From Eunapius fragilis (taxonomy: Eukaryota > Porifera > Demospongiae > Spongillida > Spongillidae): a stretch of 64,000 nt of DNA. The stretch covers positions 4,880,978 to 4,944,977 of the forward strand of contig OY811987.1 in NCBI GenBank assembly GCA_963681505.1. The letters are read 5' to 3'. Every line of letters starts with the position of its first letter. Position 1 is the stretch's first letter. The position numbers were made by a program, and so were the translations under genes. The notes beneath the pieces are model-generated. The model saw nothing but the letters and a program-made list of their open reading frames with translations, made no database searches and was not told where the DNA came from. Shown here one piece after another: positions 12,828 to 62,391 of the stretch.

Positions 12828-14195
12828 CCCCCCTGCCCTTATGTACCCACTGTCAGCTGGACACCCAGCCCACCTACCCACTGTAAGTAGCTACACCCCC
12901 TGCTCCATGTACATGTATTGGACCCCCTGCCTTCATGTACCCACTGCAAGCAGTTGGACCCCCTGACTGCCCCCTGCCCCATGTATCCACTGTTACACTC
13001 TGTTCCCATGTACCCACACTGTAATCCCCTGTCCCCATGTGCCCACTATAAACAGCTGGACCTCCTGCCCCATGTATATACCCACTGTTAGCAGCTGGAC
13101 CTCGTCCCCCACATGTCTACTGTAAACAGCTGAATCCCCGGCCTTCATGTAAGTAGCTGGACTCCCTGCCCCCATACACCCACCGCTACCCCATACTACC
13201 CTCTGCTCTCATGTACCCACTGTGAGCAGCTGGATCCCCTGCCCACATGTACCCTCTATAAGCAGCTGGACCCCCTCCCCCATGTACCCACTGCAAGCAG
13301 CTGGACCCCCTCCCCCATGTACCCACTGTAAGCAGCTGAACCCCCTCCTCCCATGTGCCCACTGTAAGTAGCTGTACTCCTGCCCCGTGTACATGTATGC
13401 AGCTGGACCCCCTGCCCACATGTACCCACTGTAAGCAGCTGGACCCCCTGCCCCACATACACCTACCCTCATGTACCAACTGTAAGCAGCTGGATCCCCT
13501 CCCCCATGTACCCACGCCCCCTTGCTCCCATGTACCCACTGTAAGCAACTGGCCCCCTTGCCCCCATGTACCCACTGTAAGCAGCTAGACCCCTTGCCCT
13601 CATGTACCCACTGTAAGCAGCTGGACCCCCCTGCCCCCATGTACCCACTGTAAGCAGCTGGACTCCCTTGCCCCCATGTACCCACAGTAAGCAGCTGGAC
13701 CCCTGCCCCCATGTACTCACTAAGCAACTGGCCCCCTTGCCCCCATGTACCCACTGTAAGCAGGTAGACCCCTGCCCCCACATACGCCTACCCTCATGTA
13801 CCAACTGTAAGCAGCTGGACCCCCTCCCCCATGTACCCATGCCCCCTTGCCCCCATGTACCCACTGTAAGCAGCTGGACCCCCTCCCCCGTGTACCCATG
13901 CCCCCATGCCCCTATGTACCCACTGTAAGCAACTGGACCCCCTCCCCCATGCACCCACGCCCCCTTGCCCCCTTGCCCCCTTGTACCCACTGTAAGCAAC
14001 TGGCCCCCCTGCCCCCATGTACCCACTGTAAGCAGCTGGACCCCCTCCCCCATGTACCCACGCCCCCTTGCCCCCATGTACCCACTGTAAGGAACTGGCC
14101 CCCCTGCCCCCATGTACCCACTGTAATCAGCTGGACCCCTGCCCCCCATGTACCCACAGTAAGCAGCTGGACCCCCTGCCCTCATGTATCCATTA
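12828..14195. repeat. GC-rich minisatellite
   Basis: About 1.37 kb of imperfect tandem copies with a core CATGTACCCACTGTAAGCAG followed by a C-rich linker of variable length; most units are about 35-48 bp. The right half is more regular than the left. Long frames exist on both strands because units are often multiples of three, but they are satellite translation, not genes. Confidence 0.93.
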
Positions 14196-14291
14196 TAAAC
14201 CCCCTCTCATGAATGCTCTCCTTTTGATCTCTCTAGCCACCAAATGTTTTCCACAAGTTCTGCAAAGTTTCTGGAGCTGGTATATGTGGTG

Positions 14292-14500
14292 TTCCATCTA
14301 GGCTATGTGACCGAATAAAGCTACTAATACCGCATTATTCATAGAAAAGCAAAACCCTTTTATTGTGTGGTGAAAAAAAAGTATGGCTGGACCTAAATGG
14401 TGTTTCTGTATACCTAAATGTGTACAGTTGACAATGCAGCATGCTGACGTTCCTGAGAATTTGTCTGTGCTTGGTACTATTAGCGTGAAGTACCCCCTCT
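14292..14500. repeat. Dispersed repeat family, copy 1
   Basis: Shares a stretch of about 200 bp with 24403-24620, including GGCTATGTG, CGAATAAAGC and a GGTGAAAAAAA tract. The AATAAA and A-rich tract suggest a short retroposed repeat, but no tRNA-like head was found. Confidence 0.55.
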
Positions 14501-14574
14501 CCCTTACGATATCCATATATAAATTGGCTGCGCGTTATTAAGGATTGCGATATGAAGAGTGCGCATATGGTGTA

Positions 14575-14850
14575 CCCAGCAAAAAGTTCTTGGGCAAGGT
14601 TCTTGCCAAGAAGAGCAAGATCTTGGCAGGAGGCCAAGATCTTGCCAGGAGGCTGAGATCTTGCCATATCTTGGGTAAGATCTTGGCCAAGATCTTGGCC
14701 AGAAATTGGCCGGCATAATCTTGGCACCTTGGGCAAGATCTTGGGCAAGTCTTGGGCAAATTGGGCAAGATCTTGGGCAAGTTGGTCAAGATCTTGGGCA
14801 AGTTGGTCAAGATCTTGGGCAGGAATCTTGTCCAAGAACTTTTTGCTGGG
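14575..14850. mobile_element. Inverted-repeat element A with internal 21-bp repeats
   Basis: Ends are CCCAGCAAAAAGTTCTTGG and its complement, flanked by GTA on both sides (14572-14574 and 14851-14853). The interior is built from TTGGGCAAGATC-like units. It is almost identical to 14973-15227 except for one extra 21-bp unit. Non-coding and of unassigned superfamily. Confidence 0.85.
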
Positions 14851-14972
14851 GTAGTCTCTACTACGACGATACACCAGTTAAATGGGAGGGATCAACAAGT
14901 ATTTGATGGTAAAATGAACAAGATACAGCTCTATCAAAAAACGCCATTTTAATGAGGCCATGGCGCATCTAT

Positions 14973-15227
14973 CCCAGCAAAAAGTTCTTGGGCAAGGTTC
15001 TTGCCAAGAAGAGCAAGATCTTGGCAGGAGGCCAAGATCTTGCCAGGAGGCTGAGATCTTGCCATATCTTGGGTAAGATCTTGGCCAAGATCTTGGCCAG
15101 AAATTGGCCGGCATAATCTTGGCACCTTGGGCAAGATCTTGGGCAAGTCTTGGGCAAATTGGGCAAGATCTTGGGCAAGTTGGTCAAGATCTTGGGCAGG
15201 AATCTTGTCCAAGAACTTTTTGCTGGG
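14973..15227. mobile_element. Inverted-repeat element B, sister of 14575-14850
   Basis: Same terminal repeats, flanked by TAT on both sides (14970-14972 and 15228-15230). The different 3-bp flanks of the two copies show independent insertions with 3-bp target duplication rather than tandem copying. Confidence 0.85.
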
Positions 15228-15235
15228 TATATCAC

Positions 15236-16058
15236 CATAGATAGTTTAGAGATGGATTGGAAGCACGGTTAATTGTCACGAATTATCACCTACACTCCGT
15301 GATCTGCTGGTATGCTGTGAGCATAGATAGTTGCGTGTACTTCAGATACTAAATCTATGGCTGAGGCAATGACAAAACCCGACGAAATACTGAAAAGAGC
15401 TGTTGAAAATGTGTTAGCTGACGATGGCTTTAAGATTCAGACTCCATCGTCGAGAAGCGCTGTTGAAAATTAAAAACCTCGTACATAAATCACAAAAATC
15501 CGCGTTGTTTGAGGCAGCGTATTAAGAAAACCAAGTACTATTTTCAAAAAACGAAAAAAGTCCCTCCTGGAGCTTTCACTGAACACTTAGGATTGGTTCG
15601 TAGAATTACAAAACCACTTAGGATGGCTCGTAAACAGGTACATGCACGAGGTATACTAATTTATGCCCTCAACTACTATATGACGGTGTTACACACGATC
15701 GGATGAAGATAAAAAAAATCCCTCCTAGAGAAATGACCTCTATAAGCATAGAAAACATAATAAACCTTTGGAGACTCACCCGTTTCTCACAAAAGGTACA
15801 TAAGCACACAACAGTGGTGAAATTATTGGTACGAAGCGCGCGTAGTACGAACAGTGGCTATTTTAAGGTCAATATTACAGAACACTTAACGTTCAAATAG
15901 GCGATGAGGAATGTCCACCAAAAATCAGTATGGCACAGTTTGACGACTTTTGCCTCGATTTGCCCTCTAGAAAGGTGTGATTCGCGCGATCACGGAGTGC
16001 GCGCGTAGTCTTAATGGCTCACGTGATGCGCTTCCAATCCATCTCTAAACTATCTATG
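15236..16058. mobile_element. 823-bp DNA element with 29-bp inverted ends
   Basis: Terminal repeats at 15236-15264 and 16030-16058 begin CATAGATAGTTTAGAGATGG. The 7 bp ATATCAC occurs directly outside both ends. Inside are a 38-codon frame at 15358-15474 (MAEAMTKPDEILKRAVEN) and short open stretches at 15509-15706 and 15703-15900, none of which I recognise. The size suggests a non-autonomous element. Confidence 0.65.
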
Positions 16059-16070
16059 ATATCACAACCA

Positions 16071-18610
16071 CTTCTGAATCTCTCGTGATGTAATGATCTC
16101 GTGCGTTACGGTTGTGATATTACGGACGTAACAGAGGTGATTTCCCAAAGGGTCCGATTCAGACATTATATGTGCGGTCTGAATCACCTGGATTATTGTA
16201 ACCATTGCTAGTTACTATTAATTTGAACTTAACAAATCAAACGATACACGGCTGGTTTTCACCTCTGAATCGCATGCTTGATCACGTGACCACGATTGGT
16301 GTCCGAGATTTATTGCCCATCGTGTAAGCTTGAATTCGAGTTCAGAAACAAGTATTTGCGTCATCTGAAGGCGGCTGGTTACGAAGCATACCTAGAGTAA
16401 AATAGGCGATGAAACAAACACAGCCGTGTTAGTGCCTCCACATGTGCAGCCAACAGATTGTGATTCAACCTCTCCAGATGCTGATATTGGCCCTTTTGCC
16501 ACAGAGGGTGAATCCTGCTCTAGTAAGTAGCAGTGTAATGAGATTTTGGACACATTTTTTTGCGAATTTGTAGGCCGAGGCGACGATTGCTGTCGTCGAG
16601 AATACTCTACCAGCTGTAGTCAGTTCTGAAAGAGAAGAGACTCTACCAGCTGTAGTCAGTTCCGAAAGAGAAGAGAGTGCTGTTGGTAAGATAACCATTG
16701 CACTTAAGTAAACGTGTTCTTTACATACTATTACAGTAGATTGTAAGTGCTACTTTTATATTCAGATGGCCCTTACCCAGTTATTCATTTCATGTCAAGG
16801 TTGATGTTTCCACTGGTCTCCAAGGCACAATTTCATTAATTTCAATACACGTAGGGCTACACCAGCGGAGGTTTTGCATACTCTAACTCTAGGCCCTTAC
16901 AAGTATCTACTTGGATTCCGGATGGCTCAGTTTTCACCACAGCAACACAAGGAGGTTTTGGCTTGCATTATCTCATTTAACTTCTCTGGTCAGCTCTCTC
17001 AGTAGTATCTCTAAGTACTACTATAAATCATTTGTGGGGCATGATTTCAAAACTTTGGCACAACTAGCACACTGTGTTTCCACCTTTGTTAACACCTAGT
17101 GAAGCAGAAGTATGGTTGGCTCTTTCAAAGGTATGTGTTACACATTTGTGTATGTGTCTTCATTCGTATTGTCTGTCAGGTTTTCAAGCGGGTATATTGT
17201 GAGAAGTTTACATCATGAAGTCTGTGTTGTTTTGAATTTGCTCGAGCCACTGATAGACACTGTCCGGAGCTGAGGAAAAAGCTCAAAATCCATCTCCTCC
17301 TTCATCTACCTGATTACATGCTTCAGTTTGGACCTGCATCAGGGTTTAACACTGAAAGGTAAGACTTAATTCTGGCTCAGAGTCTGTGACATTGCTAATC
17401 ATTCTTTAGATGTGAGAGCTATAATGGTGCGATCAGGTATTGTAACACATACGGCAATAAACATGCTCCGAGCAAAGACATTGCCAACAGTTTTGCAATT
17501 CAGGAGAGCATACGATTTTTCTGTTCAGGAGGTCGTTTCGATCCATCAGAAATGCAGTGAGTATTGGTTTTGCCATTTATTTTTAATAATGACTCCTCAT
17601 CAGGTGTGGTGATGGCCTGCTACAGTTATATCAGTCAACAGAAGTTGTTGAGTTCCTGACAGGAAGGTCACCTACTAGTGATACAGCCATGTATAGTCAT
17701 GGGGCACTTTGTAAGGTATTCAGTTGGCTTTCGTTTTCACTGTGTTGCTACATTATGGTAATACTCTGCAACCTTAGATCAATGTACGTAAGCCAACTAA
17801 GTTGGTGTCTGTGTTGCTTCAAGTACATGGACTTGGGGAGATGTCTGTCACAACTCTGATAGATGAACATATGTTGACTACAGACCTGCAAACTCATGTC
17901 ACCTGGGGCAAAGCAACTGTGACAGCTGAATGTGACACTGTTAATGTGGGTGACTTTGTGCTTTATAATGGCAGAGCTGGGTCTCCAGTAAGTCCTCCAG
18001 ATAGTGTATTCTTAATTACATGTGCAGTACTATAGATGGAGGTAGGGATCCTACTGAGCTAACAGCACCCGCTACTGTATAGTAGTACAACATATGGATT
18101 GTGAAATGGCCAGTGGACAGCCATGCCTCAACGAGTTTGATTGCCCGCTTCTGACGCTTACAAAGGTCCTTCAGGTCATTTCTTCTACAGCCATCGTTCG
18201 TGCAGTTTCAGTGGTTCATCAGTGCACTCAACATGTGTTGTGGATTTCATGCGTATTGCTACCAGGACAGAACGACAGGGAGCAACTGAAAACACACTGC
18301 GTTTGAAACATGACTGGAGTAATACTATGCTTTGTTATAATGTTTACTGCATTGCAAATGATGTTTTAACAAAAAAATTAAAAGCGAAAAATAAAAAAAA
18401 CATATGAATGCGCTCAATAAGGGATACGGTATACTTTGAACTTCGTTGATGATTCATCAGCTATACGGACATAATCACTGATAATGATTCACCCGAGATA
18501 ATTTAAGAAGCGTATCACCGCGCTGCCAAAAGGATCTGATTCGCCCGCGTGCTAATAGAGACGTTACGCAAGCGTTAACCGCTCTACTGGCCGTGATAGC
18601 CGCAATGGTT
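16071..18610 (+). mobile_element. Zinc-finger multi-exon element, copy A (left terminal repeat kept, right one lost)
   Basis: The body is colinear with 55811-58290. The left 138 bp (16071-16208) occur inverted at 58276-58413, which is the right end of copy B. The repeat contains a hairpin GATTCAGAC/GTCTGAATC. Copy A has a 10-bp deletion and a stop in exon 1 (near 16311 and 16395), so it is a dead copy. It lies 120 bp upstream of the NLR1 start codon. Confidence 0.65.
16290..18310 (+). pseudogene. Decayed zinc-finger protein gene in copy A
   Basis: Homologous to the gene at 55893-57976. The coding minisatellite of exon 2 has only two 36-bp units here against five in copy B. The conserved exon near 17410-17560 retains SYNG-like sequence. 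Exon 1 is frameshifted. Confidence 0.6.
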
Positions 18611-18730
18611 TTATTGGTTTACGGTATTGTCTAATTATGGACCCTTTTGTCCAGCCGCACAGGGCTGTGGGCCGGGCCGGGTAAGTTAGTAAAAACATCA
18701 ATTGGTTGTCACGTGAGAGCCCTGTCCAAG

Positions 18731-18827
18731 ATGGCTTATTTAAACGGAGAAGCAGACTACTTCGATCAAGAGGATGATGAAACAAGACCAGGACCATCTG
18801 AGCGACCTAGGAGCCAAGCAAATACTG
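18731..18827 (+). CDS. NLR1 exon 1
   Basis: Encodes MAYLNGEADYFDQEDDETRP and about 12 more residues. The start has a good context (CCAAGATGG). The region is acidic and unlike exon 1 of NLR2 except for the last codons before the donor (AAT ACT G|GTAAGT here, AAT ACA G|GTAAGC there). Confidence 0.65.
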
Positions 18828-21800
18828 GTAAGTACCAAACCAAGGAAGCACTAAGGCAGCAGCAACTAGTGAGGACTAAAGAACGCAACTTATGTTCTAT
18901 CACAGGAAAAAAAATCGCTTGGGTTTTAACCTATCGACCTTGGGATCTGTTCCATCAAATGTATTCACTGTTATCTTAGGCACTTTGAATACGTTTGATG
19001 GAACAGATCCCAAGGTCGATAGAGTAAAACCCAAGGTCAGGAACACGATTTTTTCCCCTGTGTATGGCTGCAGGCTTGGGTTCCATATTTAAAACCAAAT
19101 TTAGGTACCTCCAGGAAGAGGTAGAAACACTGCGCTTTCTTAGCTCAGCAGTTTGTAGACTAAGTCAATAGATCAGCCATGCATAGCAGTGCATCCAATG
19201 TCACTGTCACTTTCTTTGTTATATTAGTGCCAAGGAAGGTGGAGCAATACAGAACATTTCTGGAGGCTTCCTATGATGTCACATCACTGACCAAGGACCA
19301 GTGGCCACCTGTTCGCTTTCAAGAGTACATCAAACTGGCAACAGTCCTGAAGGTGGAAGATTTTATGCATGAGGAAGCCTTTACCAAGGCTATGATGGAA
19401 GGGAACCTGGAGATTGTAAAGAGAATGAGACAGTCCATAGAAATAGACCAGGTCAGTTTTATCACTCATGTATGTCCTTAAGGCATAGGTCCTTCAATGT
19501 CCAGATTGGTACATGTGAGGATAGTACATTGGCTACCTGCATAATTGTGGAAGGCATTCCGGGTGTTGGCAAGTCCACCTTAGCATGGCAGCTGGCACGA
19601 CGTTGGAGAAAGGGTGAAATCCTTCAACACTTCCATCTGGTTATTGTGATGTGCTTGAGGGACCAGAGGGTACAGAGAGCAGACACCATATCTCAGCTGA
19701 TACATCATCCTAATGCAGCCATACAGCATTCAGTTGTAGAGTGGATGACCACTACTCTGGGAGAGAAGGTGTTGATGATTCTAGATGGATACGATGAACT
19801 GCCTCCAGAACACCAAATTGGAGATAGGTCAATCATTGCTGGTATCATAAAAGGGGAGGAGCTACCTAAGCTTACAGTACTGGTGACCAGTAGACCTTCA
19901 GCCAACAGAAACCTCTATCAGCTGTGTAGGGTGCGAGCAAAGTGTCAGTATATTGAAGTGGTTGGCTTTGGTGAGGAGGAGATCCAAGAGTACATTGAGC
20001 ATTCTCTGAAGCACAACCCTGGACTATTGGAAGGGTTCAACTCCTACCTTGAGTGCCGTTCCCATATCCGCAGTATGATGTATGTTCCCATCAACTGCGC
20101 CATTGTTGTGGAGCTATTTAGGGAGTACAAGGGGAAACCCCCCGAGACCCTGACTGAGGTATACATAGCACTAACCAGCACACTACTGAAGCGTCATGAG
20201 GCAAAGACCAAACACAAGATCTCACCAGGTACATGTAGATTCTTATATAGTCTGCTCACTTAAATAGTCAGTAGGAAACAGTAGAAAGTGGTCAGGCTGG
20301 CAGAATGATGGGGTTACCATTGCAGATAAGGGGCAAGCTCCCCAACCGGGGGGGGGGGGGGGGGGGGTCTGGACCTTCGCCCTAGAAGCAAATAAAATCT
20401 GATAGGTTTTGTTTTGGGATTGGATTAGAGCTATGCATTTTTGTGGCTCCAAATTTTTTCCATTATTGAATCAAAATTAAACTATCAAATTCATTCATTC
20501 TAAAGCATAAATTTTTATATTGGTACAGCTGTACATTGTACATGCTAGGTTGAACTGTGAAATATACTATGTCTTTTCCTTTTCATAAATGGGAATGGTG
20601 TGCATGTTTAGAATTAGAAAGTGTATGGCTTGTAACGAGAAATTACAGTTTTTACAGCTTGTGAGCGGCCTAACCACCAATGAATTAATTTGACAAATGA
20701 ACCAATCCCAAGTACAGTAGATGTAATTATTCATACAAATATACCCACATTTCTATATCATTTCTTGAGGGGAACCTAGGCCAATAAGATGTCAGACCAT
20801 AACAAGAATGCCTGACTGATCCTGGATATGTGCAATGTACATGTTTATGGTGTTCTTTGTATTGTGTTGTAATCCATGGTGTTGATCTAAGATCTAGAGG
20901 TGGACAATGTACTTACATAGTCTTTAACTACTATTGCCCCTGTGTCACCAACATGTATGAAGCAATGTATCACATCGCATCACATTTATCTGCAATGATT
21001 ATTGCATTGTATGTGGTACTTTACATAATGTGTTTACAATTCCTCCACAGTAGAGTTACTGAAGACGCATTACAGTGATCTGGTGGGCACTATTCAGGAT
21101 CCTGCTGGTGTTGCTGGCTTACTATACTCCGGAGGCGTAATCTCTCAGCATGTGAGGAATAAGGTACAACAGAGAGAAGATCTGACCATAAAGAGAAAGA
21201 ATGAAGTCCTCATCAATGCAGTGGAAACTCAAGTGACCACAGACCCTTCAGCGTACCAGGTGTTAATGGAGGTGTTGGGAGAAGAACCACATCTGTCCAC
21301 CATTGTGAGAAAGATGACTGTAACATGTGAGTCTGGTGCTGGCATCATTTAATGTACTACAAAGCCTATAACAATTGAGAGGAAAAGATTATTGCCTTCA
21401 TCATTAAAATTAAGCTGTCTGGTAGACATATTAACTGTACCTCTCAGTTTCAGTCCCTTGATGTTCTCTACACTGAAGCTAAGACCATTACAAATGCATT
21501 TGATGTAGTTTTATGTGCAGTGTTGGCAGCTGCATATACATGTACAGAGGTTTTCCTTTTCCCTCTGTCCACTCACAGGTATGGCTGCACCAAAGGTGAG
21601 GTGTTTTGAAGGTCTATCACCAACCACAGTCTCCCAGTTGATACCAGTTGCAAGGCTAGCCTACCAGGGCACACTGCAGGACCAGCTGATATTCCATGAT
21701 GTGTCTGAAACCATTGAAACATTAGGTACATTTTGTTGAAGATTGCTGTTTAAAAATGAAGGTCATGGAGGTGTTGCCCTGCCAAATTTCTACAATCAAC

Positions 21801-24800
21801 AGGCATTGTAATAATATTACTAATCAATTTTCAGTGGGATAGGAATGCAATGTGTGTCTGTATTAACTTATGCATAGAGGTAAATGTCCCATCTAAAGGA
21901 ACATTGCCCCCTCTCTGAGAAAAGGGTGGGCAGAGAGCATTTTCTCCCACTGCTCCCTCACCTATACCTATACCTATGCTTATATCCCTCAGGTCTCCTC
22001 CAGAAGGTACCACAGCTGTACCTGACGACCTCCTCTGCAGCTTCTTACAACTTTATACACAAGACTCTCCAGGAGTTCCTAACTGCATGGCATGTCTCCT
22101 CCCTACCATCATTGGAACAGAGGGCCTTTTTGAAAGATGCCTCAAGCAAACCCATCATGGCTATGACTGTACGCTTCATGGGTGGTCTAACCAAGTTCAA
22201 GACATCTGAAGATAAAGATGCTGATGGCTTTGCAGACATGGTCATTTCATTAGAGACTGGTAACATAGAGGAGAGAATTGAAAATATTCATTGGATGTTT
22301 GAAACCCAGAACCCTTCCTTCATTCAGAGGTTGATGGGAAATAAGGAGCAAAGCTTTGATGGCTCAGATAGTATGTTAATGAATCCATTTGATCTGTATG
22401 CACTGGGATACTGCATTGCAAATAGCTCCACACAGTGGTCTGTGAATTTGGGAAATTGTTATCTGATTGATGAGTGTATGAAGATGATGTTCTTGGTTGA
22501 AGAAGGAAAAGCATTCCATCATATCACAAGCATGCGATTATCCGACAACCCCATATCAACTCACACTGCATCCCTTTTAGGTGAGCTCTTCTGTAGTTAT
22601 TGATATGACTGTTAAAACAAAGGTGTACACATATGTGATTGGTGCATTTTGGTGTAGCTTTAATAGGTAGGTCTGGCCTATATTTACTGGTGGGTGGGGT
22701 GTAAGCCCATTGATATTTGGGCATTGCATAGATGTACACAATACAATCACAGACATAGTACACATTGGAGGATGAAGTTTTAGTGAGTACAAATATACAC
22801 GTGTGGGTGGGCGTGACCATTTGCATGTATGTTACATACATGAGAGGTACCCTCAATATCCCGATGTACCGCATCATGTTCTCTTACTCCCATATATGGT
22901 GCCAATACATAATTAATAATAATATTATTATTCTTACATTACAAGCCTGTCCCCATTGGAGGTCTCTGTGCAATGTAGGTGGAGGGTCGGTTCAGTGGAG
23001 TTTAGCAAAAGCCCATGCTCCTTGCTCCAATACCTTTAGATGACACAGTTAAGAAGAGGTTGACCTCAGCAGTATCCTTAGCACAAGATGGTCTGTTCGC
23101 TACAGCATGCCAAGTACTGGTGTCACCTGGTTTAGCACCTAACAATGCTGAAAAATGGAACTTTTTAGTGGCCAAACACCCCAAGTGTCCTTGTTGAGTG
23201 TCCTTGTAAAGGTTTTATAGAAAGTAATACTGAACACAACATAGGTGCAAGCTACATAATTAGAGAAATGAAAGTCTCAATCCATCGTGGCAATAAAATC
23301 ACAGACATTGTAAACATTGGAGGGTGAAGTACAAATATACACGTGTGGGTGGGTGTGAGCATTTGCATTTATGTTTTGTTACATACATGTAAGGTACCCT
23401 CAATATATCCTGATGTACTATGTCTGTACTCAATGGTGTACTCAATGGGTGCACTGAATGGCTTTACATGTACACGACTAACATAAACCAGAGTATGGAG
23501 GAGGTGATGTAGACACATGGCCGCTTGCACAGTACTGTACATCTAAGTTATAGTTATATTAGCACAGCAGTAAGGAAAACTGGTCAATTAGGTAGTTTTA
23601 TAGAAAGTAGCACTCCGGGTGTACACCCTCCCCCAGTGGATCCCCATTGTGTGATGAGCCATGTGAGAGTCTTAATATCCCTCTCAACATAGGTATGGTG
23701 TTGAAGGTGAATAACAGTCTTAAGGAATTGGACCTTAGGGGATGTGAACTACAACCAGAGGGATTAGAACAAGTGATCAAAGGTGTCCAAGTCAATACCA
23801 AGTTGGAATCCCTGAACCTGTCATACATCACCATTAATAACAAGAGAGCATCATGTCTTGGTAAGAGCAGTTCCATCATTGCTTTTTCTGCACATATCCA
23901 GCGACTAGCATGTCAGCCACTGACGCCATGGTTACCATAGCGACTATAACTATTGCAGTAATGTACCAATGTGGCTTTATATAGACATAATATCTAACCA
24001 TGGTGTGGAGGAGGTGTTAGGGTGGGGGGGGGGGGGCCATTTTTGGAGTGCATACACCAACTGTTGCCTTAGTTACTGTGTTGCAAGCCATCTCTACACC
24101 TCTGTGCATTTTTTTACATTGCAGATGTATGCATGTATGTGCAGCCTGGTGTTGATCAGATGTCACCTTCAATGTCCTGATGTACATGTACATGGCACAA
24201 ATCAAGCTTTGGTTGAGGGGGTGGGGGGGGGAGGGGCATGTGTTGCTACACCATAGATCATTAATCATCTGAAAGAGGTTGGGACCCCACTTAGTCCAGG
24301 CTCATTATCTACCGTTTCTGTAACTATTACAGAAACTATTCCTTCCATTTTAGCGATATAACATGCATGCTCATAATTTATCAATCCAACATTTGGTCTC
24401 GGTGGTGTTCCACCTAGGCTATGTGGCCGAATAAAGCAAAAAACCGCATTATTCGTAGAAAACCAAAACTGTTTATTGCCTGGTGAAAAAAATGTGTGGC
24501 TTCATCTGAATGGTGTTTCTGTTTCTGTATACCTAACTTTGTATATAGGTGACAATGCGGCATCCTGACCTTCTTGAGAATTTGTCCCTGATAGCAAGGT
24601 ATTTTCGGCCTACAGCGGTAGATATCTCTCCACTTTATAGTAATGTATAACGCCAAAGTTGGCCAAAGTTGCTTACGTCAATTTGGTAATGTTTTGCAGT
24701 GCATGGTTTATAGATCAGTTTACTTAGGGTATATTTATCCTATGTATTTTATGGCTTCGTTTTTGTCAATGCTTTTAACCTTTATTACCTTTTGGTCCTC

Positions 24801-27800
24801 AATGGAGGTGGTCTGGTGACTAGTGTAATATTTTAATGGTACACCTCACAAAATTGCAGATTCTAAAATAAATCTGTCATGATCGCGCAAGTTGACGTTT
24901 TTGCTACCTGGGTTTATAAGTTTCAAGAACTATATACAATACCAAATCCTCCAGAAATATTTAGGAAACAAGTAATAAAAACATTCTCTACACGAGAAGG
25001 TTGGTGGTATATAGGAATCAAAGGTGATGGTGGTGTAAAAAGCAAGGGAACAAGGCTTCTGATTGAAAATGAAAAATGAAGTAGGCCTATATTAGCATGC
25101 ACATTTAAATATGACAACATGTTGCTAATATACATGTGTAGGTCTATTTCCTTTTCAATCAGAAGCTTTGTTCCCTTGCTTTTAACACCACCATCACCTT
25201 TGATTCCTATATACCACCAACCTTCTCGTAGTGAAATGCATGAGACAAGTGCATGCAGTTAAGGTTATGTGACATGAGCATGTAGTGCAGGCATGAGATA
25301 GGAACATGTAGTGGAGAAGCACAAGCATGAATGGTTTGTGTTAGTCTGTGTGTGAAGGTTGTCAAGGGCATGGTCACATGAGCATGTAGTGGAGGCGATG
25401 AGACACAAAACAGTGGTTGATTTGGGAGTGGGGGGGGGGAATGCTGTAAGCTCACTCATCGGGTGAGGCTATGCCCCATATGCAAAGCTTTGCATTTGTG
25501 GTGTTTCTACATTAAAAATCTCATAGCAAACTGCAATGGATACTATTTGTAAGGGGAGGGAGAGCTAAGGGGTACAGGCCCGTCTACCCCCCCCCCCCCC
25601 ACCCCCCATCGCGGTCCATTACTGTGCAGTGGTGAGGATTAGGAGACCTGGGCATTCAGGGGAGGATATGAGACATGTAGTGGAGGCTATGAGATCCATG
25701 TAGTCCTGACCATGTTGTGAGACACGAGCATGGGAGGTTTGTGCATGTCTAAGTGTTAATGTGTGTGTGTGTGTGTGTGAGTTTACATATATCTGCAAGG
25801 GGGTGTGACATGCAGATTAAAAAAAGTTAAAGTATGGTGGTGGGTTCATACATCTGTGCATCTGTGCGTGCAGAGCATAATCCCAACTAAAAAGAAGGGT
25901 TGCTATCAGCCCGGCAGTGGTTTTAACTTGACCAAACCTCCCCCCACTCTGAACTTATAGAGAAGGAAGGGCATGGGACATAAGCATGTAGTGGAGGCTA
26001 TGTGACACAAAAATGTAGTGGAGGCTATAATACCGTACCATGTACCGGAGGTAAAGAGACACACATGTAGGGAGCTATGGATGTTAATGTTTGTGTGTGT
26101 TTACCTGTAGCTACAGGGGTGTGACATGCAGATGAAATTAAAATATGCTGCATCTGTGCTTTCAGAGAGTAAATCCCAACCCAAAGAACTTGCTCAGCTG
26201 TAGTTTAACTCAACCACACCTCCCCCCACTCAGAATTTACAGTGAAGGAAGGGCATGGGACAGGAGCATGTAGTGGAGGCTATGTGACACAAAAATGTAT
26301 GAGACAGGACCATGTAATGAAGGCTATGAGACATAAACTTGTAATGGATGCTATAAGCCAGGACCATGTAGCGGAAATTATGTGACACCAGCAGGTAGTA
26401 GAGACTATGAAACATTGGTATGTACTGAAGGCGATGAGAAACAAGCATGTAATGAGACACAAGCATATAGTGGACTGAGATAGAACCATGCAGTGGAGGT
26501 TATGAGACACAAGGATGTGTGGTTTGTGTGTGTGTTTGTGTGTGTGTATGTGTGTGTGTGTGGAGGGGTTACATATATCTGTAAGTGGATGTAACATGCA
26601 GATGAAATGAAAAATGGAGAGATATGGTGGTTGGTTAATACATCTGTGCGTGCAGAGCGTAAACTTTTCAGCCCAGCTGTGACTTTAACTCGACCCCGCC
26701 TCCCCCCTGCATCGTATCTCATGGATCTGTTATAGCATAATTTGTACGTCAATAAATGGGCACGCAAGGAGTGCACTGAACCGACAGACACACGATTTCT
26801 AAATGATGTTATGTGCGCGCGTATTCACTACTGCTATAGTACATACCGTGTTGCGTAAGGCAATGGCAGCTGGCAGCTGAATCCGGCCACGCATTTCGAT
26901 CGCCTAATGAATTCCGTTCGCTATAGAAGTAAAAAAAGAACCAGACTGACGTTTGCAAGGCCGTAGATAAGGGGAAGCCTTTGGGGGGGGGGGGGGGGGG
27001 GGGGGGGGTAAATTTCTGTATCTGACATTTATTAATGATGTATTGGCATAATTAATACATGTAAGTGTATTCTACAGGTCTCATGAGCTAGCTCTCGCCA
27101 TTATTACAATCAACCTAGAGTAACGAAACTCTGCTTAGCAAGGCTCTTGCATTGGCTCTGACCAGCGTCATATTCAGCCTCACATATATGCTTGACAGTG
27201 CTTCTGTCTGGGTACTGAAGACTTCACAGAAAAGTCTGGTGGCCAATAGAGAAAGTGTACGCTGTGCTTCCTCACCCCATGCTCCACATACCTCCACAGC
27301 CATTGGGACACATCACTTTCCAGAGCTTCAGAGAATAGGGCTGTAGCCAGTGCATCGATCTACTGTAAAGTTCCTGGATTTCTTCAGGATCTAGATGAAG
27401 TCCTAGACCAGGAGATGGGGTTGCCAACAACCATGAAGATGCGTGCACAGAGGACACAGACATAAGTCTGGCTTTGTCAGCTGCAGAACTGTTGTCGATG
27501 AGCTGGTTGAACTTTGCAGCTTCCAATTTAGAGGAGAGAAGTTGCTGTCGATATGGGTGGTCAACAACCTCCTCAATGGACAAGGCATCATTCTTTAGCA
27601 TTAAAAGCTGTCAGTGCATGCAATAGGTTAGTATTGGTGACTAAGGAAGAGCCAGTACTGCTGACAGATGACAGAGGCAATGTATACTGCAGAGCAGTGA
27701 TGGGCAAGTGATCTGAAGCCTAGTCCACCATGCCGAAGGCTCAGCTGAACTTGTTTTCTGGCTTTGGGTGGCATCTCAATTGCCAGACACTCTGAAAGGC

Positions 27801-30800
27801 AGTTCATAGCATCTTGATCAAACAAACCAAGTTCATCTGTTGTTATTGTTGGGGGTGTAGTGCGAGCTATGTGAGATAGCTTGCTAAAACTACCATGCAC
27901 ACATACGGAACAGTATAAGAGCTACATGTGGATCTTGCAGAGCAGCCTTTTCGATCCCTGATAGTAAGTTGGAGGCTGCAGAGCATTTAGATGCTATATA
28001 GGGTGAACAGTATTGGACATCACCAATAGGAGATCCCAGGATATCGAGATTGGGGCAGGTAGACGTCTTCATCTCTGGTGGAAAAAGTTCGAAGTCATTG
28101 CATTTATTGAAGAGCTCACATTTTGAAGGATTGAGATAAAGACCTAGAGTAGGACCAATATCGCGATTGATGTTTAGAGCATTACTAACACTCAATCGCG
28201 GTCCTGCTAGAACACCATCATCCGTGTTTAGGAGCAAACTAGTGTTAGGGCAGTCTGCTACAATACCTTATGCAGCACAAGGCAAAATAGTGGCCCAAGT
28301 GGGTCTCCTTGTTGAACTCCAAGCTCAGATGTCAACAGACCCAATGGGTGCCATAGAAAGGGATGCTCACCATAACACCACTTTACCCAAGGAAGTATCT
28401 CTGGAAAGTGGAGGGCACATTCATCCAGAAGTGCCTGGCGAGATACTAGGTTGAAGGCATTCCTTAAATCTACTTTGCAGACCAAAAAGTTGTCGTTTTT
28501 CCAGTGGCCATCTATGGTCTGACGAAGGGCATTTCACTCCCTGAAGGACATGCAACACCACTGAAAAAAGGATGCTGCATTTTTCTGTGTTACAGCACAG
28601 AGACACTTGCTTGGCATGCATACCTCTCCTACCGCAATAGGTCTTATATCGGGGGAATCAGGTTTGCCCTTCTTCAAAGCAGTTAGGTTTCCTCCAGCTA
28701 GGTACTTGGAGATGGAAGAGGGAGCTTTACCAGAGGCAATATTAACAATTCTATTTAATGGATTACGCAATGACATACTTTTATGAATAAATTATGCATG
28801 GTAGAAATAATATTTTGTCTTGAGTTTAGTTATGGAATGGTTAATGGTATAATTTTTTGAAGTGCATATATGATAATCGGACCGATTTATAGTACATTAT
28901 AGACTTGTTTAAAATTCAATCTGAAAAAAAAAAGCAATTGAGACGACCGCCTGTGTATGGGCCATTTCTGGATATGGTCTATAAAATGAATGGCCACATA
29001 GGTAAGTGGACTCAACCCTGGTAACTGAATTTAACCTACGATAATCCCCAACTACAAATATCCATTCCTCTTTATGTCCACTACTATTGGTGAGGCCCAT
29101 TCACTAGAAATTGGCTCTATGATCCATGTCCACCAATACCTTCCCTATAAGCATGTGGTTACCTACAAGGAGGCACAACCTAACAAGTTCTGTATCACCA
29201 GTTTCAGTCCTATGCGCATACATTGGGTTTGTTCTTCCTGGTTTGTCACTTCAGTGCCCTGATGTCTGTATTAGCAGCAACTCCACCCTCTGTTTGTGAC
29301 TTACCATTCTGATAATCCCTCTACATCACCATGAAGGTACATGTACCAGAGCTCCACCCAGTAACAGTACCTTTGATCCTTCACTTCATGAACATTGTAA
29401 CCAATTTAATGTGAAAATCCTTTTCTTCTTTTTATCCTACATATCAGTGAGGTAGGTGACCTTACCCATCCCCTGGACTGTTCAATAGGATTTGTCCCCG
29501 TCTCCGAGCAGCAGATTTATTGAATGACATTGGAAGTATTACCAAAGCAAAGATTGCCCATCTAAGGTTCTCGAAGGCATACCTTCTTGTTGTACCAGTC
29601 TCTTGGTAAAGTTGTGCATATGGCTAAATTTTTCATTGTCATTTTACCCCAATTCTCATCTCCCTGATTCATCAATTTTTCATGCTGAACCCTGACATGA
29701 GCAAATACCTTGACTGCACCCCTCCTCCCTTCTTGCATCTCTCCCCCCCCCCACACACACACTTTTTGTATCAATGCCCTCGCTGAAATCCTGGATGGGG
29801 TGTAAGCCCATTGATAGGGAGTACAAATATGCACATGTGGGTGGGTGTACGTATGTTTTGTTACATACATGTAAGGTACCCTCAATACATCCTGGTGTAC
29901 TGTATCATGTCTCTTTGGTCTCTTTGGTAAGGCATTCCAAGTACTGGTGTCATCTGGGTTATCACCCAACAATGCTGAAACATGGAACCTTTTAGTGTCC
30001 AAACACCCCAAGTGTCCTTGTCCTTCTGTTCCCACCTTACCACGTATGGACACTGTTGTCCTCATGACCTTGATCTCATGGTTATCATTAGGTCCTTTCC
30101 AATGCTAACATCAGCAGGGTCATCAGGGCTTCCCATTCAACCTATCATCGATGCATCACACTATTGTACATCTAAGTTATATTAGCACACCTATAATGAT
30201 AACTGGTCAATTAGGTAGTTGGTATTTATTGATGAATTGAAGGTAATATGTATGGATTAGAAAATAACTTATAAACCAATTCTGACACTATATGATCATG
30301 GCCCTATTTGTTATTACCTGCTTTTATCATGCAACAAATATTGCTATAAATTGATGAATTGAAGGTAGTATTTATGGATATGGATTTATGGATTGGAAAA
30401 TAACTAAACCAATTCTGACACTATGTGGTGTGAATAGTACATTAGCATAGTAGTTCATAGTTGGTATTGGTTGATGAATTGAAGCTAATATTTATGGATT
30501 GGAAAATAATTAAACCAATTCTGACACTATGTGAATACGGGATGAATAACTTGGGCAAGCATCTTGAGGTGTACAATAGCTGTGTAGACACTACAGTGCC
30601 ATTGGCTAAACCATGCTATGTCAGCTATTGAATGTTATAGCCCAGTTCTGATACTGTGGTCTGAATGGTCTTATTTGGTATGACCTGCTTTTATCACGCC
30701 TTAGACACCATATGTGCAAGTCATGTACACTTCAGTGTACATTGTGTGTATTGTAGCTGTATGCTTCTGGAAGGTGTATGGTTGTATGTGCAGCCTCTTG

Positions 30801-33800
30801 TTGACCTGATAGGTCATCCTGATGTACATGGTACACACCAAAGTCTGGGGTAAGGGGAAGGGGATGTGCATTGGTAACCCATTATGACCTACTAAGGGTA
30901 TTTGCAGCCTAATAAACGTTTTAAAATGAGGCCACCTTGTAACGTCTAATTTTCTTGGAGTGTTTTCCAGACATACAGACCCCCTCGCTGAGGTGAGGGG
31001 TCGGCCCTAAGTGTACATGCTACCCATGAGCCATGTGAGAGTGTTAATGTCCCTCTCTACATAGGTATGATGTTGAAGGAGAATAACAGTCTTAAGAAAC
31101 TGTACCTTTTGGGATGTCAACTACGACGAAAGGGATTAGAACAAGTGATCAAAGGTGTCCAAGTCAATACCAAGTTGGAATCCCTGGACCTGTCAGAGAA
31201 CACCATTAATAACAAGAGTGCATCATGTCTTGGTAAGAGCAGTTCCATCATTGCTTTTTCTGCACATATCCAGTGGCTAACATGTAAGCCACTGAGGCCA
31301 TGATTACCATAGCGACACTAACAATTGCGGCAATGTGCCAATAGCTTTATCTAGCCATGGTGTGAAGGAGATGTTAGGGTGGGAGGGGAGGGGGGGCCAC
31401 TTTTGGAGTGAATACGCCTTAGTTACTGTGTTTGCAAGCCATCTAAACCTCTGTGCAATTTTTACATTGCAGTTAATGCCATTTACATGCTCTTAAAGGC
31501 TGAGTAACTTTACCCAGGGCTGCCCCATGCTGAAGCTCGTAGTTGTGTTTGGCCCCATAATGGGGGCAGGCGACAGCCGCAGCCAGGCATGAAAGCAGCT
31601 GTGCTTTCTACCACTGGACCTACAGGGACCAATGGGTGACGCTGGTCACCATTGGGTCGGCCTGTGTTCCAAACCAAGACGCTGGTCATGGTTTGGTGGC
31701 TGTCCCAGGGTAGAAGCCCGGAGGGTGTCGCCCACCATTGATGAAATGGCATATACATGTACAGTACACATTGAAATACACAATGGAGAGATGGGAAGTG
31801 GAGGGTGGGTGAGCAACTGGCCGCAGTCAAGGCTATGACTGGAGTGCTGCACCCATCGCGCCCTCACTTTAAATACATAAAACCTGGAACCATTGTAAAA
31901 ACAGTTTGGGATGATATGATTGGGTAAAGGTGTGTTTTGTAGTGGAAAAAAGGCTCCCTGCAATGCTATTGGACCATAATGCCCTACATACGATTGGTTA
32001 GGATCATTCGTTGAATGCATCTGCAGAAACATATGCTTACATATTGACCTTAGCAACGGCAAGCTTTTTCTGTGGTAGCTATGCAGTACAGAGCATTCTT
32101 TGCATTAAACTTAGTTTACTACTACTGTACCTAAACTCTACCATGTATGCATGTATGTGCAGCCTGGTGTTGATCAGATGTCACCTTTAATGTCCTGATG
32201 TACATGGCACAAATCAATCTTTGGTTGAGGGGGTGGGGCGTGTGTTGGTACTCTATTAATCATTAATCATTGGAAAGAGGTTGGGTGGTCGGCTCCGGGT
32301 GTACACCCTCCCCCAGTGGACCCCTCATTGTGTGATGAGAGTCTTGATGCCCCTCTCTGCATAGGTATGGTGTTGAAGGAGAACAACAGTCTTAAGAAAC
32401 TGAACCTTAGGAAATGTGAACTGCAACCAGAGGGATTAGAACAAGTGATCAAAGGTGTCCAAGTCAATACCAAGTTGGAATCCCTCAACCTGTCAGGGAA
32501 CACCATTGATAACCAGAGTGCATCATGTCTTGGTAAGTGCAGTTCCATCATTGCTTTTTCTGCACATATCCAGTGTCAGTCGCTGAGGCCATGGTTACCA
32601 TAGCGACACTAACTATTGCAGTAATGTGCCAATGGCTTTAATTAGAAATAATATCTAACCATGGTGTGGGGGTTGTGTTAGGGTAGGAGGGAGGGCCACC
32701 CACTTTTGGAGTCAATACACCAACTGTTGCCTCTGTGCATTTTTTACATTGCAGATGTATGCATGTACATGCAGCCTGGTGTTGATCAGATGTCACCTTC
32801 AATGTCCTGATGTACATGGCACAAATCAATCTTTGGTTGAGGGGGTGGGGCGTGTGTTGGTACACTATTGATCATTAATCATTGGAAAGAGGTTGGGACC
32901 CCACTTAGTCCAGGTTCAGTAACTTTACATTGATTCAAAGGGGGTAACATTTGTCTGTCTGAGACCTGTCCTTTTCTGCTATGTGTATTTGCCTATACCC
33001 TAGAGTAGTAATCAATAATTTTCCCAATCTGTTACTCACAGGGTTTATGATAATGGATGCTATTGGACAATTGTCTGATCAATATTGCCATTTGTCTGTT
33101 TGATCATCTATACAACCTAACAAGTTCTGTGTCAACAGTTTCAGTCGTATGCGCATACATTGGGTTTGTTCTTCCAGGTTTGTCACTTCAGTGCCCTGGT
33201 GACTACATTTAGCAACAACTCCACCCTCTGTTTGTGACCTACCATTCTGATAATCCCTCTACATCACCATGAAGGTACCAGAGCTCCTCCAGTAACAGTA
33301 CCCTTGTCCTTCTCTTCATGAACATTGTAGCCAATTTAATGTAAAAAATCCTTTTCTTCTTTTTATCCTACATATCAATGAGGTAGGTGACCTTACCCAT
33401 CCCCTGGACTGCTCAATAGGATTTGTCCCCGGCTCCAAGCAGCTGATTTATTGGATGTCATTGGAAGTATGACCAAAACAAAATTGCCCATCTAAAGTTC
33501 ATGAAGGCATACCTCCTTGTTGTATCAGTCTTTTGGTATAGTTGTGCATGTGGCTAAATTTTTCATTTTACCCCAATTGATTCATCAATATTTCATGCTG
33601 AACCCTGACATGAGCAAATACCTTGATCAGTTCTTCATCTACATTCTCTATATCAATGCTCTATGGGGCCATCACCTCCGGATACCTAGTTGCACAATCA
33701 CTGATGACCAGAATATATTTGTTACCTGACCGGCTTCCTAGGAGGAGCCCCACTATGTCCATGGTCATTCTACTGAAGGGTTCTCATTTGATCGGCAGTG

Positions 33801-55470: not shown

Positions 55471-55810
55471 GGCCTAGGGAAGTTAAGGTAAAGTTATGCC
55501 TAAGAGGCTAAGCCATATGGAACATACTTGTTACATGCGGAGACATTATCGCTGAGCTAGGCTACGTACGGCACAGAGGAGAACGAGGCACGAGCAACAG
55601 CTGCAGGACATATTGCCAGCTGCCCAACTGATGGCCCTCAGCTCATGATCACACGTGCATGCTTACAAGTATCTCCCCGATAGCAATATGCATTTTTGGG
55701 GGGCGTCTCCAAACTATTTTGGAAAAGATAACGTCATTGTGACATTTCATTTTATTACTCCCCCGTCATTGATATACGGAGTCCGTACGCCATTTTTTTT
55801 TGTTCAGTAT
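55471..55810. other. No gene recognised
   Basis: Unique-looking 340 bp before copy B of the zinc-finger element. Confidence 0.4.
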
Positions 55811-55892
55811 TAGTTACTATTAATTTGAACTTAACAAACGATACACGGCTGGTTTTCACCTCTGAATCGCATGCTTGATCACGTGACCACGA

Positions 55893-57976: not shown

Positions 57977-58275
57977 CTGGAGTAATACTATGTTTTGTTA
58001 TAATGTTTACTGAATTGCAAATGATGTTTTTAACATAAAAGCGAAAAATAAAAACATATGAATGCGCTCAATAAGGGATACGGTATACTTTGAACTTCGT
58101 TGATGATTCATCAGCTATACGGACATGAATCAGGTGCGGTTGATAATGATTCACCCGAGATAATTTAAGAAGCGTATCACCGCGCTGCCAAAAGGATCTG
58201 ATTCGCCCGCGTGCTAATAGAGACGTTACGCAAGCGTTAACAGCTCTGATTCGTTGTCAAAAAACTGGCCGTGTA

Positions 58276-58413
58276 GCAATGGTTATAATAATCCAGGTGA
58301 TTCAGACCGCACATATAATGTCTGAATCGGACCCTTTGGGAAATCACCTCCGTTACGTCCGTAATATCACAGCCGTAACGCACGAGATCATTAAATCAGG
58401 AGAGATTCAGAAG
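58276..58413 (-). repeat. Right terminal inverted repeat of copy B
   Basis: Inverse of 16071-16208, with the internal hairpin GATTCAGAC/GTCTGAATC. Confidence 0.8.
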
Positions 58414-58862: not shown

Positions 58863-58875
58863 ATGGGCAATACAG
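58863..58875 (+). CDS. NLR2 exon 1, 13-nt myristoylation-type start
   Basis: ATGGGCAATACAG followed by GTAAGC. Intron 1 is 86 bp to the acceptor CACATTAG at 58961. Confidence 0.6.
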
Positions 58876-61800
58876 GTAAGCCCGCATTGCAGAAGAACGG
58901 ATGGGGGCGGGCAGCATACCTTGTGCAGCATCTGTTGAGTTGAGGTTCTATTTCACATTAGTGTCAAAGGAGGTAGAGCAATACAGAAAATATCTGGAGG
59001 CTTTCTATGATGTTACATCACTGACCAAAGACCAGTGGCCACCTGTTCACTTTCAAGAGTACATCAAACTGGAAACAGTTCTGAAGGTGAAAGATTTTAT
59101 GCATGAGGAAGCCTTTACCAAGGCTATGATGGAAGGGAACCTGGAGATTGTAAAGAGAATGAGACAGTCCATAGAAATAGACCAGGTCAGTTTTATCACT
59201 CATGTATGTCCTTAAGGCACAGGTCCTTCAATGTCCAGATTGGTACATGTGAGGATAGTACATTGGCTACCTGCATAATTGTGGAAGGCATTCCGGGTGT
59301 TGGCAAGTCCACCTTAGCATGGCAGCTGGCACGACGTTGGAGAAAGGGTGAAATCCTTCAACACTTCCATCTGGTTATAGTTCTGCGCTTGAGGGACCAG
59401 AGGGTGCAGAGAGCAGACACCATAACTCAGCTGATACATCATCCTAATTCAGCCATACAGCAGTCAGTTGGTGAGTGGATGACCACTACTCTGGGAGAGA
59501 AGGTGTTGATGATTCTAGATGGATATGATGAACTGCCTCCAGAACACCAAAGTGGAGATGGATCAATCATTGCTGGTATCATAAAAGGGGACGTGCTACC
59601 TAAGCTTACAGTACTGGTGACCAGTAGACCTTCGGCCAACAGAAACCTCTATCAGCTGTGTAAGGAGCGAGCAAAGTGTCAGTACATTGAAGTGGTTGGC
59701 TTTGGTGAGGGGGAGGTCCAAAAGTACATTGATCATTCTCTGAAGCACAACCCTGGACTATTGGAAAGGTTCAACTCCTACCTTGAGTGCCGTCCCCATA
59801 TCCGCAGTATGATGTATGTTCCCATTAACTGTGCCTTTGTTGTGGAGCTATTTATGGAGTGCAAGAAGAAACCCCCCGAGACGCTAACTGGGGTATACAT
59901 AGCACTAACCAACAAACTACTGAAGCGTCATGAGGCAAAAACTAAACACGAGACCTCACATACTACAGGTAATTGTAAATTCTTACATAATCTGCTAGCT
60001 TCAATAGTTATGTCATGCCTATAGGAAGCAGTAGAAAAGTGATCAGGCTGGCATAATGAGGTGGTTACCATTGCAGATAGAGGGGAAGCTCCCCCATTGG
60101 GGTCTGGATCTTCGCCCCAGAAGCGAATACATTTTCTGCAATCTAATAGATTTTGTTTTGGGGAATATGACAATAGGAATTGAGCTATGCATTTTTGTTG
60201 TCCCAAAATTGTCTTATTAATGAATCAAAGAAGAACCTACATATTCATTCTTTCGAAACCAACACATCTGACAGTTTTTTTTTTCATTTTAATACATGCT
60301 AGATTGAAGGAGAAACATACTAAAGTATGTCTTTTCCTTTTCATAAATGTGACTGGTGTGCATTTTTTGAATTAGAAACTAGTAGTGGCTCGCAATGAGA
60401 AACTACAGCTTTCACAGCTTGTGCATGAGTGGTCTAACCACGAATGAATTATTTTGACAAATTAACCAATCACAAGTAATTATAAGTAATTATTCATGTG
60501 GATATGCCCACATTTAATTCTATATCATGTCGTGAGGTGAACCGAGGCCAAAAGGTGGTCAGACCATAACCAGAATGCCTGACTGACTGCTGTGGCCCTG
60601 ATGTAGATCCTGGATATGTGCAATGTACATGTATATGGTATTCTTTGTATTGTGTTGTAATCCATGGTGTTGATCTAAGATCTAGAGGTGGACAATGTAC
60701 TTATATAGTCTCAGAATCTTTACTACATCTGTCCCTGTGTTAATTACCAACATGTATGAAGCAATACATTTATCATGCAATGATTATTGAATTATGCGCT
60801 TTACTTAACATAATGTATTTACAATTCCTCCACAGTAGCGTTACTGAAGAAGCATTACGGTGATCTGGTGGGCACTATTCAGGATCCTGCTGGTGTTGCT
60901 GGCTCACTATACTCCAGAGGCGTAATCTCTCAATATGTGAGGGATGAGGTACAACAGAGAGGAGATCTGACCATAAAGAGAAAGAATGAAGTCCTCATCA
61001 ATGCAGTGGAAGCTCAGGTGACCACAGACCCTTCAATGTACCAGGTGTTCATGGAGGTGTTGGGAGAAGAACCATATCTGTCCATCATTGTGAGAAAAAT
61101 GTCAGAAACATGTGAGTCTGGTGCTGGCATCATTTACTGTGGAATAGCCTGTAACAGTTGTCATGATTTAATGTTCTAGTAGACATGTATTGTCCATTAA
61201 CCTCTCAGCTTCACCTTCGATGTTCTTTACACTGAAGCAGGCCATTACATATAGCCTTAGCTTCAGTGTATATATGCATTGATGTATTGATGTACTTACA
61301 TGCATGTGCAGTGTTGGCAGCTACACATACATGTATCCATTTACCACTGTCCCCTCACAGGCATGGCTGCACCAAAGGTGAGGTGTTTTGAAGGTCTATC
61401 ACCAACCACAGTCTCCCAGTTGATATCAGTTGCAAGGCTAGCCTACCAGGGCACACTGCAGGACCAGCTGATATTCCATGATGTGCCTGAAACCATTGAA
61501 ACATTAGGTACATTTATCAAAGTTGAAGATTGCTGTATAATAATGAGGGTCATGGAGGTTTTGCTTTGCCAAATTTCTACAATCAACAGGCATTGTAATA
61601 ATATTGCTAATCAATTAATTTTCAATGAGATAGGAATTCAATGTGTGTGTGATCCTCCTGTACCTGTGTCTGTATTAACTCATGCATAGAGCTAGGTAAA
61701 TGTCCCCATCTAAAGGAACATTGCCCCCTCTCTGAGAAAAGGGTGGGCGGAGAACATTTTCTGCCACTGCTCCCTCACCTATACCTATACCAATGCTTAT

Positions 61801-62391
61801 ATCCCTCAGGTCTCCTCCAGAAGGTACCACAGCTGTACCTGACGACCTCCTCTGCAGCTTCTTACAACTTTATACACAAGACTCTCCAGGAGTTCCTAAC
61901 TGCATGGCATGTCTCCTCCCTACCGTCATTAGAACAGAGGGCCTTTGTGAAAGATGCTTCAAGAAAACCAATCATGGCTATGATTGTACACTTCATGGCT
62001 GGTTTAACCAAGTACCTGACATCATCTGAAGATGTTGACGACTTTGCAGACATGGTCATTTCGTTAAAGGCCAGTGATAACAAGAGGAAGATTGAAAATA
62101 TGCGTTTGATGTTTGAAACCCAGAACCCCTCCTTCATTCAGAGGTTGATGGGAAATAAGGAGCAAAGATTTCACTGTTCAACAACTAGGTTGAATCCATT
62201 TGATCTGTATGTACTGGGGTACTGCATTGCAAACAGCTCCACATTGTGGACTGTGAATTTAGGATATTGCACTCTGACTGATGAGTGTATGAAGATGATG
62301 TTCTTGGTTGAAGAAGGAAAAGCATTCCATCATATCACAAGCTTGGATTTATCTTACAACACCATATCAGCATCTACTGCATCCCTTCTAG
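58863..62391 (+). CDS. NLR2: NACHT-LRR receptor, exons 1-6 (3' part beyond or lost)
   Basis: Exons: 58863-58875, 58962-59185, 59239-59968, 60836-61111, 61361-61507 and 61810-62391. Phases equal those of NLR1. Exon 1 encodes only MGNT plus one base; an in-frame TAG lies 33 bases upstream, so the ATG is well supported. Spliced to exon 2 the protein begins MGNTVSKEVEQYRKYLE, matching the myristoylation consensus MGxxxS/T-K. NACHT has GIPGVGKST and LMILDGYDEL; the death-fold exon and FIHKTLQEFLTAWHVS follow. No disabling lesion. The exon 6 donor (GTGAGC) calls for LRR exons, but none is seen before 64000; LINE and gypsy sequences lie there. 657 residues are visible. Confidence 0.78.
59239..59968 (+). 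CDS. NLR2 exon 3, NACHT domain
   Basis: Two codons longer than NLR1 exon 3 at the 3' end (HETSHTT). All NACHT motifs intact. Confidence 0.88.
60836..61111 (+). CDS. NLR2 exon 4, death-fold cassette
   Basis: 276 bp, phase 1-1. Conserved core LVGTIQDPAGVAGSLYSRG, KNEVLINAVEAQVTTDPSMY and VLGEEPYLSIIVRKM. Confidence 0.75.
61361..62391 (+). CDS. NLR2 exons 5 and 6, winged helix to first LRR
   Basis: Exon 5 61361-61507 and exon 6 61810-62391, separated by a 302-bp intron. The equivalent NLR1 exon 6 is two codons longer. Confidence 0.82.

Follow-up and report, generated by a model that had tools for sequence, protein, structure and literature searches.

To our knowledge, the nucleotide-binding leucine-rich repeat receptors (NLRs) carry their death-fold output domain at one end of the protein. 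The CARD of NLRC4, NOD1, and NOD2 is N-terminal; in NLRP1 the CARD is C-terminal, lying after the leucine-rich repeats (LRRs) and the FIIND domain, and is released by proteolysis. How the opening of the NLR core reaches the output domain is debated. A survey of 11 sponge genomes, including that of Ephydatia muelleri, defined the NLRC class by an N-terminal CARD (PMC12909245); in the portions of that report used here, NLRCs are present in few species, and species besides D. avara, H. panicea, and C. crambe are listed without them. We surveyed the genome of the sponge Eunapius fragilis (219 Mb, 24 contigs), starting from a stretch of 64,000 nucleotides on contig OY811987.1 (C17:4880978-4944977, hereafter the window). 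The window contains an NLR gene on the plus strand (copy A) in which a predicted CARD, encoded by a single exon (exon 4), is placed between the NACHT region and the winged helix domain (WHD).

Copy A has the parts that define an NLR: a NACHT NTPase, in whose translation the Walker-type motifs GIPGVGKST and LMILDGYDEL were read, a winged helix and helical domain 2 (HD2) following helical domain 1 (HD1), and C-terminal LRRs. The internal exon borders were all AG/GT with phases consistent along the exon chain, and the closest proteins to exons 3-6 among the matches listed were E. muelleri gene models (68-73% identity). A reading made from the sequence alone (the sequence-only reading) had proposed a 92-codon phase 1-1 exon with a CARD/DED-like pattern, and its coordinates for exon 4 proved exact, with AG before and GT after. 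Exon 4 scored 22.1 bits against Pfam CARD in copy A and 21.9 bits in a second copy of the gene in the window (copy B), below the curated cut-off of 23.9, which was exceeded by paralogues on contigs C14 (28.3 bits) and C2 (26.7 bits). AlphaFold2 modeled the 92 residues as a six-helix death fold (pLDDT 88) that is nearest to CARDs. The top Foldseek matches of this model were CARD8, ICEBERG, and the NLRC4 CARD, none of which reached E<=0.001. In VIA-align, rows 1-44 of 50 were CARD-bearing entries as judged by their titles, the exceptions by title being row 5, a de novo design, and row 28, an unknown protein that is named CARD8 elsewhere; the FADD death domain first appeared at row 45. Together, these predictions support exon 4 as encoding a CARD-type death-fold domain, at a level better than chance. 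No death effector domain (DED) family matched exon 4 in Pfam at E<=10 and CARD matched instead; the CARD half of the earlier description was thus retained and a DED identity was rejected. Among four paralogues, 7-9% of the aligned bases of exon 4 differed, compared with 12-31% upstream and 8-34% downstream in the 100 intron bases beside it, indicating that the exon behaves as coding sequence. An alignment of 35 CARDs showed 66-84% identity to the first sequence and 17 invariant positions.

To place the CARD within the receptor, we aligned a profile of NLR homologues, spanning HD1, WHD, and HD2, with NLRP3 sequences from the Protein Data Bank (PDB). Exon 3 ended on the last helix of HD1, exon 5 matched the beginning of the winged helix, and a motif of FIHKTLQEFLTA type in exon 6 aligned with the winged-helix segment of NLRP3 that holds FIHMTFQEF; a direct Pfam match of exon 6 to NLRC4_HD2 was weak (E=0.13). 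The CARD therefore sits between HD1 and the WHD. The order given in the sequence-only reading, with a death-fold exon between NACHT and winged helix, was right, and the precise point is the HD1/WHD boundary rather than the inside of the NTPase core. When the E. muelleri protein P0041 was modeled with AlphaFold2 (pLDDT 83), the CARD formed a separate bundle flanked by two low-confidence linkers, residues 248-252 and 346-348. This model aligned with NLRC4 and NOD2 structures and, in most rows, lay 4-5 Å from closed-state NLR structures and 13-15 Å from active ones. The death-fold domain is thus not where sponge classes place it: the CARD follows NACHT in both window copies, whereas NLRC requires an N-terminal CARD, and the NLR Death profile of this genome, searched against the window at E<1, gave no match for the N-terminal DEATH domain that defines NLRD, the gene start being putative.

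A search of the genome with exon 4 gave 16 matches. A parallel NACHT search listed 52 matches, 30 of which were fetched, all above 150 bits. A downstream exon-5 match was present at 27 of these 30 loci; a CARD lay between at five (two on C17 and one each on C14, C2, and C8) and was absent at the other 22. Exon 5 was not matched at the remaining three loci, at one of which a CARD follows NACHT. The search of sponge NLRs for the same order was extended to proteins, of which the best 120 of 209 matches were listed: eight had the order NACHT-CARD-winged helix, six ended after the CARD, and eight carried an N-terminal CARD. All 14 mid-CARD proteins among the matches listed bear E. muelleri gene names, although these proteins mix two annotation sets and the 14 models may represent fewer than 14 genes. 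In addition, a predicted open reading frame (ORF) on a 794,786-base contig, P0161, runs from NACHT into CARD with no stop between. In one E. muelleri model, P0051, NACHT is preceded by a Death domain and followed by a CARD, so that this single NLR model contains two death-fold domains.

In a NACHT tree of 54 rows, 15 mid-CARD rows (four from this genome, 10 from E. muelleri, and one from the other contig) formed one clade with support of 95/91, sister to a clade of CARD-less NLRs; four E. muelleri mid-CARD models with partial NACHT domains (P0046, P0047, P0139, and P0149) were omitted. Two mid-CARD rows from C8 stood apart, adjoining long branches, and two label changes are therefore needed on this tree. 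The two loci, C8:9188245-9190585 and 9204047-9209315 (L074 and L075), represent a divergent NLR lineage in which a CARD follows NACHT. A winged-helix exon follows the CARD at the first locus; no match to exon 5 was obtained for C8:9208623. The donors of the C8 exons were in phase 1, whereas the best-scoring CARD and exon-5 acceptors were not, though phase-1 acceptors were present. Since this deep lineage also has a mid CARD, the NACHT-CARD-WHD layout may have originated repeatedly. A CARD tree of 38 rows and approximately 87 columns was poorly resolved, and a single origin of all 17 mid CARDs was neither rejected (p-AU 0.191) nor established. Phase 1 was read both for the best donor following NACHT and for the best acceptor ahead of the winged helix at 19 of the 22 loci that lack a CARD. 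Because the CARD exon is itself phase 1-1, exon shuffling appears the likeliest origin of the CARD insertion into the HD1/WHD intron, judging from exon phases. A Death exon was present in the fetched flank upstream of NACHT at 15 of the 22 CARD-less loci, as scored with a profile built partly from the same loci, and nowhere in the window.

We compared the four paralogues exon by exon using the Nei-Gojobori method (six pairs, small counts). The ratio of nonsynonymous to synonymous change (dN/dS) of the CARD exon was 1.05-7.68 and exceeded 1 in all six pairs, as opposed to 0.38-0.61 for NACHT, 0.32-1.01 for exon 5 (five pairs, undefined in one), and 0.25-0.47 for exon 6 (three pairs); exon 2 (0.48-2.48) also exceeded 1 in two pairs. 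The excess in the CARD exon arises from few synonymous changes, and Fisher tests on the change in this exon were borderline (p 0.093, 0.082, and 0.051). We do not claim positive selection on the CARD exon.

Several other accounts of exon 4 were considered. The idea that it is a stray exon or the first exon of another gene has nothing in its favor beyond the 822-base intron ahead of it, and we rejected it as scarcely credible: the acceptor and its phase recur in the four paralogues, eight E. muelleri models join NACHT, CARD, and WHD in single proteins, and P0161 is unbroken from NACHT into CARD. It is also improbable that the functional product ends after the CARD, with the LRR part made separately. 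Six E. muelleri models do stop there (P0048, P0049, P0050, P0051, P0055, and P0139) and two others, P0062 and P0067, begin at the winged helix exon; however, eight models run through, and the final residues of P0049 are those of a genomic ORF, P0039, which suggests that at least the P0049 model ran into the intron.

The sequence-only reading had further suggested a signaling domain switched in or out by splicing, with exon 4 included or skipped to give signaling or silent receptor forms. As it had stated, skipping the 276-nt exon keeps the frame when exon 3 is joined to exon 5, and the product would be an ordinary CARD-less NLR. The substitution pattern also leans this way, in that low synonymous and higher nonsynonymous change, a trend reported for alternative exons in mammals, was seen in exon 4 of the four paralogues (4-fold sites variable at 2/34 versus 17/86 in NACHT, p=0.093). 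Against this, exon 4 shares its 1-1 phase with exons 5, 6, and 7, any of which could likewise be skipped in frame, so that phase symmetry does not set it apart; frame-compatible phases are in any case expected here because 19 of the 22 CARD-less NLRs have a phase-1 intron at this point. The splice sites of exon 4 (donor, 8/9 consensus bases; acceptor, 12/17 pyrimidines) are within the range of its neighbors, and the flanking introns showed no special conservation among the four paralogues. No NACHT-to-winged-helix join without the CARD occurred among the listed subfamily homologues (NACHT score >300 bits), which, as gene models give one form per gene, is weak evidence on skipping, and a search of the genome for retrocopies of the included or the skipped join found neither. 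A splice switch was thus not borne out and we regard it as unlikely; we think it likely that exon 4 is mostly constitutive. An equally doubtful account makes the CARD a non-signaling element, serving either as bait for microbial proteins directed against CARDs or as an insert that holds the receptor closed. The high nonsynonymous change among recent copies and the position of the CARD beside the pivot are consistent with this; however, the changes counted are few and the domain shows the long-term conservation described above.

The account that we prefer, to which we give about an even chance, is that a CARD exon entered the phase-1 HD1/WHD intron, probably through shuffling, that it is kept in the mature protein, and that the CARD is freed when the receptor opens. 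The order of the exons, the identity of the domain, its recurrence among paralogues and E. muelleri gene models, and the point of insertion are what the data show; we infer the inclusion of the CARD in the protein of this species, its gating, and its partners. The normal protein order would be linker-NACHT (nucleotide-binding domain [NBD]-HD1)-CARD-WHD-HD2-LRR, with the CARD of the window genes standing in for an N-terminal death-fold domain. The NACHT part would bind nucleotide and the LRRs would sense. As long as the receptor is closed, the CARD would be held on its short linkers beside the contact between NBD and WHD. In NLRP3, as described in PMC10850481, a hinge rotation of approximately 90 degrees moves the NBD and WHD-HD2 apart, HD1 serving as the pivot. 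A comparable opening, in which NBD-HD1 swings away from WHD-HD2-LRR, would expose the CARD, given its position, and the freed CARD would recruit CARD partners around the oligomer. The genome contained 24 Peptidase_C14 matches, none of which, by eye, stood beside a CARD match. More tentatively, these genes may represent receptors in which a CARD at the HD1/WHD pivot is uncovered by nucleotide-driven opening, in which some members with an N-terminal Death domain (P0051) could signal through both of their death-fold domains, and whose layout may have arisen repeatedly.

The features of the two window genes are collected in Table 1. Copy B has the same layout as copy A and occupies 58863-62391. 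By eye, the region 55800-62400 resembles 16300-22600, and the resemblance takes in the sequence upstream of each NLR copy; the likeness of these regions, approximately 40 kb apart, suggests a segmental duplication. Copy B and the E. muelleri models P0046 and P0048, receptors without an N-terminal death domain, begin with MGN-, which we take to resemble an N-myristoylation start. A Pfam search with exon 2 of copy A gave no family.

Table 1. Exons of the two NLR genes in the window (window coordinates)
Feature	Position	Strand	Basis
Copy A possible exon 1	18731..18827	+	97 nt, starts MAYLNGEADYFD; without known domain; open frame with GT donor, in phase with exon 2; start putative
Copy A exon 2, linker ahead of NACHT	19228..19451	+	AG/GT borders; same exon lies ahead of NACHT at many NLR loci in the genome
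Copy A exon 3, NACHT NTPase + HD1	19505..20228	+	Pfam NACHT E=1.5e-26; AG/GT borders; ends in phase 1, in HD1 motif
Copy A exon 4, predicted CARD	21051..21326	+	276 nt, phase 1-1; Pfam CARD E=1.5e-4; AlphaFold2 pLDDT 88; PDB CARD matches; four paralogues
Copy A exon 5, WHD start	21579..21725	+	147 nt, phase 1-1; borders; matches NLRP3 WHD in NLR profile alignment
Copy A exon 6, remaining WHD (FIHKTLQEFLTA motif) + HD2-like region	21993..22580	+	588 nt, phase 1-1; borders; NLR profile alignment
Copy A exon 7, LRRs	23693..23860	+	168 nt, phase 1-1; Pfam LRR_6 E=1.3e-8
Probable further LRR exon of copy A	31065..31232	+	168 nt; exon-7 match E=1.4e-20; borders read
Probable further LRR exon of copy A	32365..32532	+	168 nt; exon-7 match E=2.3e-23; borders read
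Copy B possible exon 1 (MGNT)	58863..58875	+	open frame, donor; start putative
Copy B exon 2, linker	58962..59185	+	similarity to copy A; borders
Copy B exon 3, NACHT + HD1	59239..59968	+	89% identity to copy A NACHT; borders
Copy B exon 4, predicted CARD	60836..61111	+	phase 1-1; 83% identity to copy A; Pfam CARD E=1.8e-4
Copy B exon 5, WHD start	61361..61507	+	96% identity to copy A; borders
Copy B exon 6, WHD end + HD2-like	61810..62391	+	similar to copy A exon 6; borders

Elsewhere in the window, open frames on the minus strand at 27272-28791, between the LRR exons of copy A, resemble pieces of reverse transcriptase by eye, and long repetitive open frames at 13469-15268 are probably tandem repeats.

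We found no description of a CARD between NACHT and winged helix in the literature searched, subscription papers being outside its scope, in agreement with the earlier claim that the domain order is unusual. In these genes the output domain forms part of the joint at which the NLR moves and, if the CARD does signal from the hinge, they would offer a natural experiment on the coupling of NLR opening to CARD assembly. NLRC4, NOD1, and NOD2 share with the window genes a CARD joined to NACHT-WHD-HD2-LRR but have it at the N-terminus, and APAF-1 differs by its N-terminal CARD and by NB-ARC and WD40 in place of NACHT and LRR. NLRP1 is likewise an NLR with a CARD that is not N-terminal; the window CARD instead precedes the winged helix, and no FIIND was seen. 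Surveys that seek N-terminal effector domains can miss NLRs that are competent to signal; the mid-CARD NLRs of E. muelleri would be filed as effector-less, and the portions of PMC12909245 used here suggest that these genes were probably not classed as NLRC. The sponge NLRC and NLRD genes described in those portions resemble the window genes in having NACHT, LRR, and a death-fold domain and in forming a multigene family in a sponge; however, their death-fold domain is N-terminal, whereas here it lies between HD1 and WHD.
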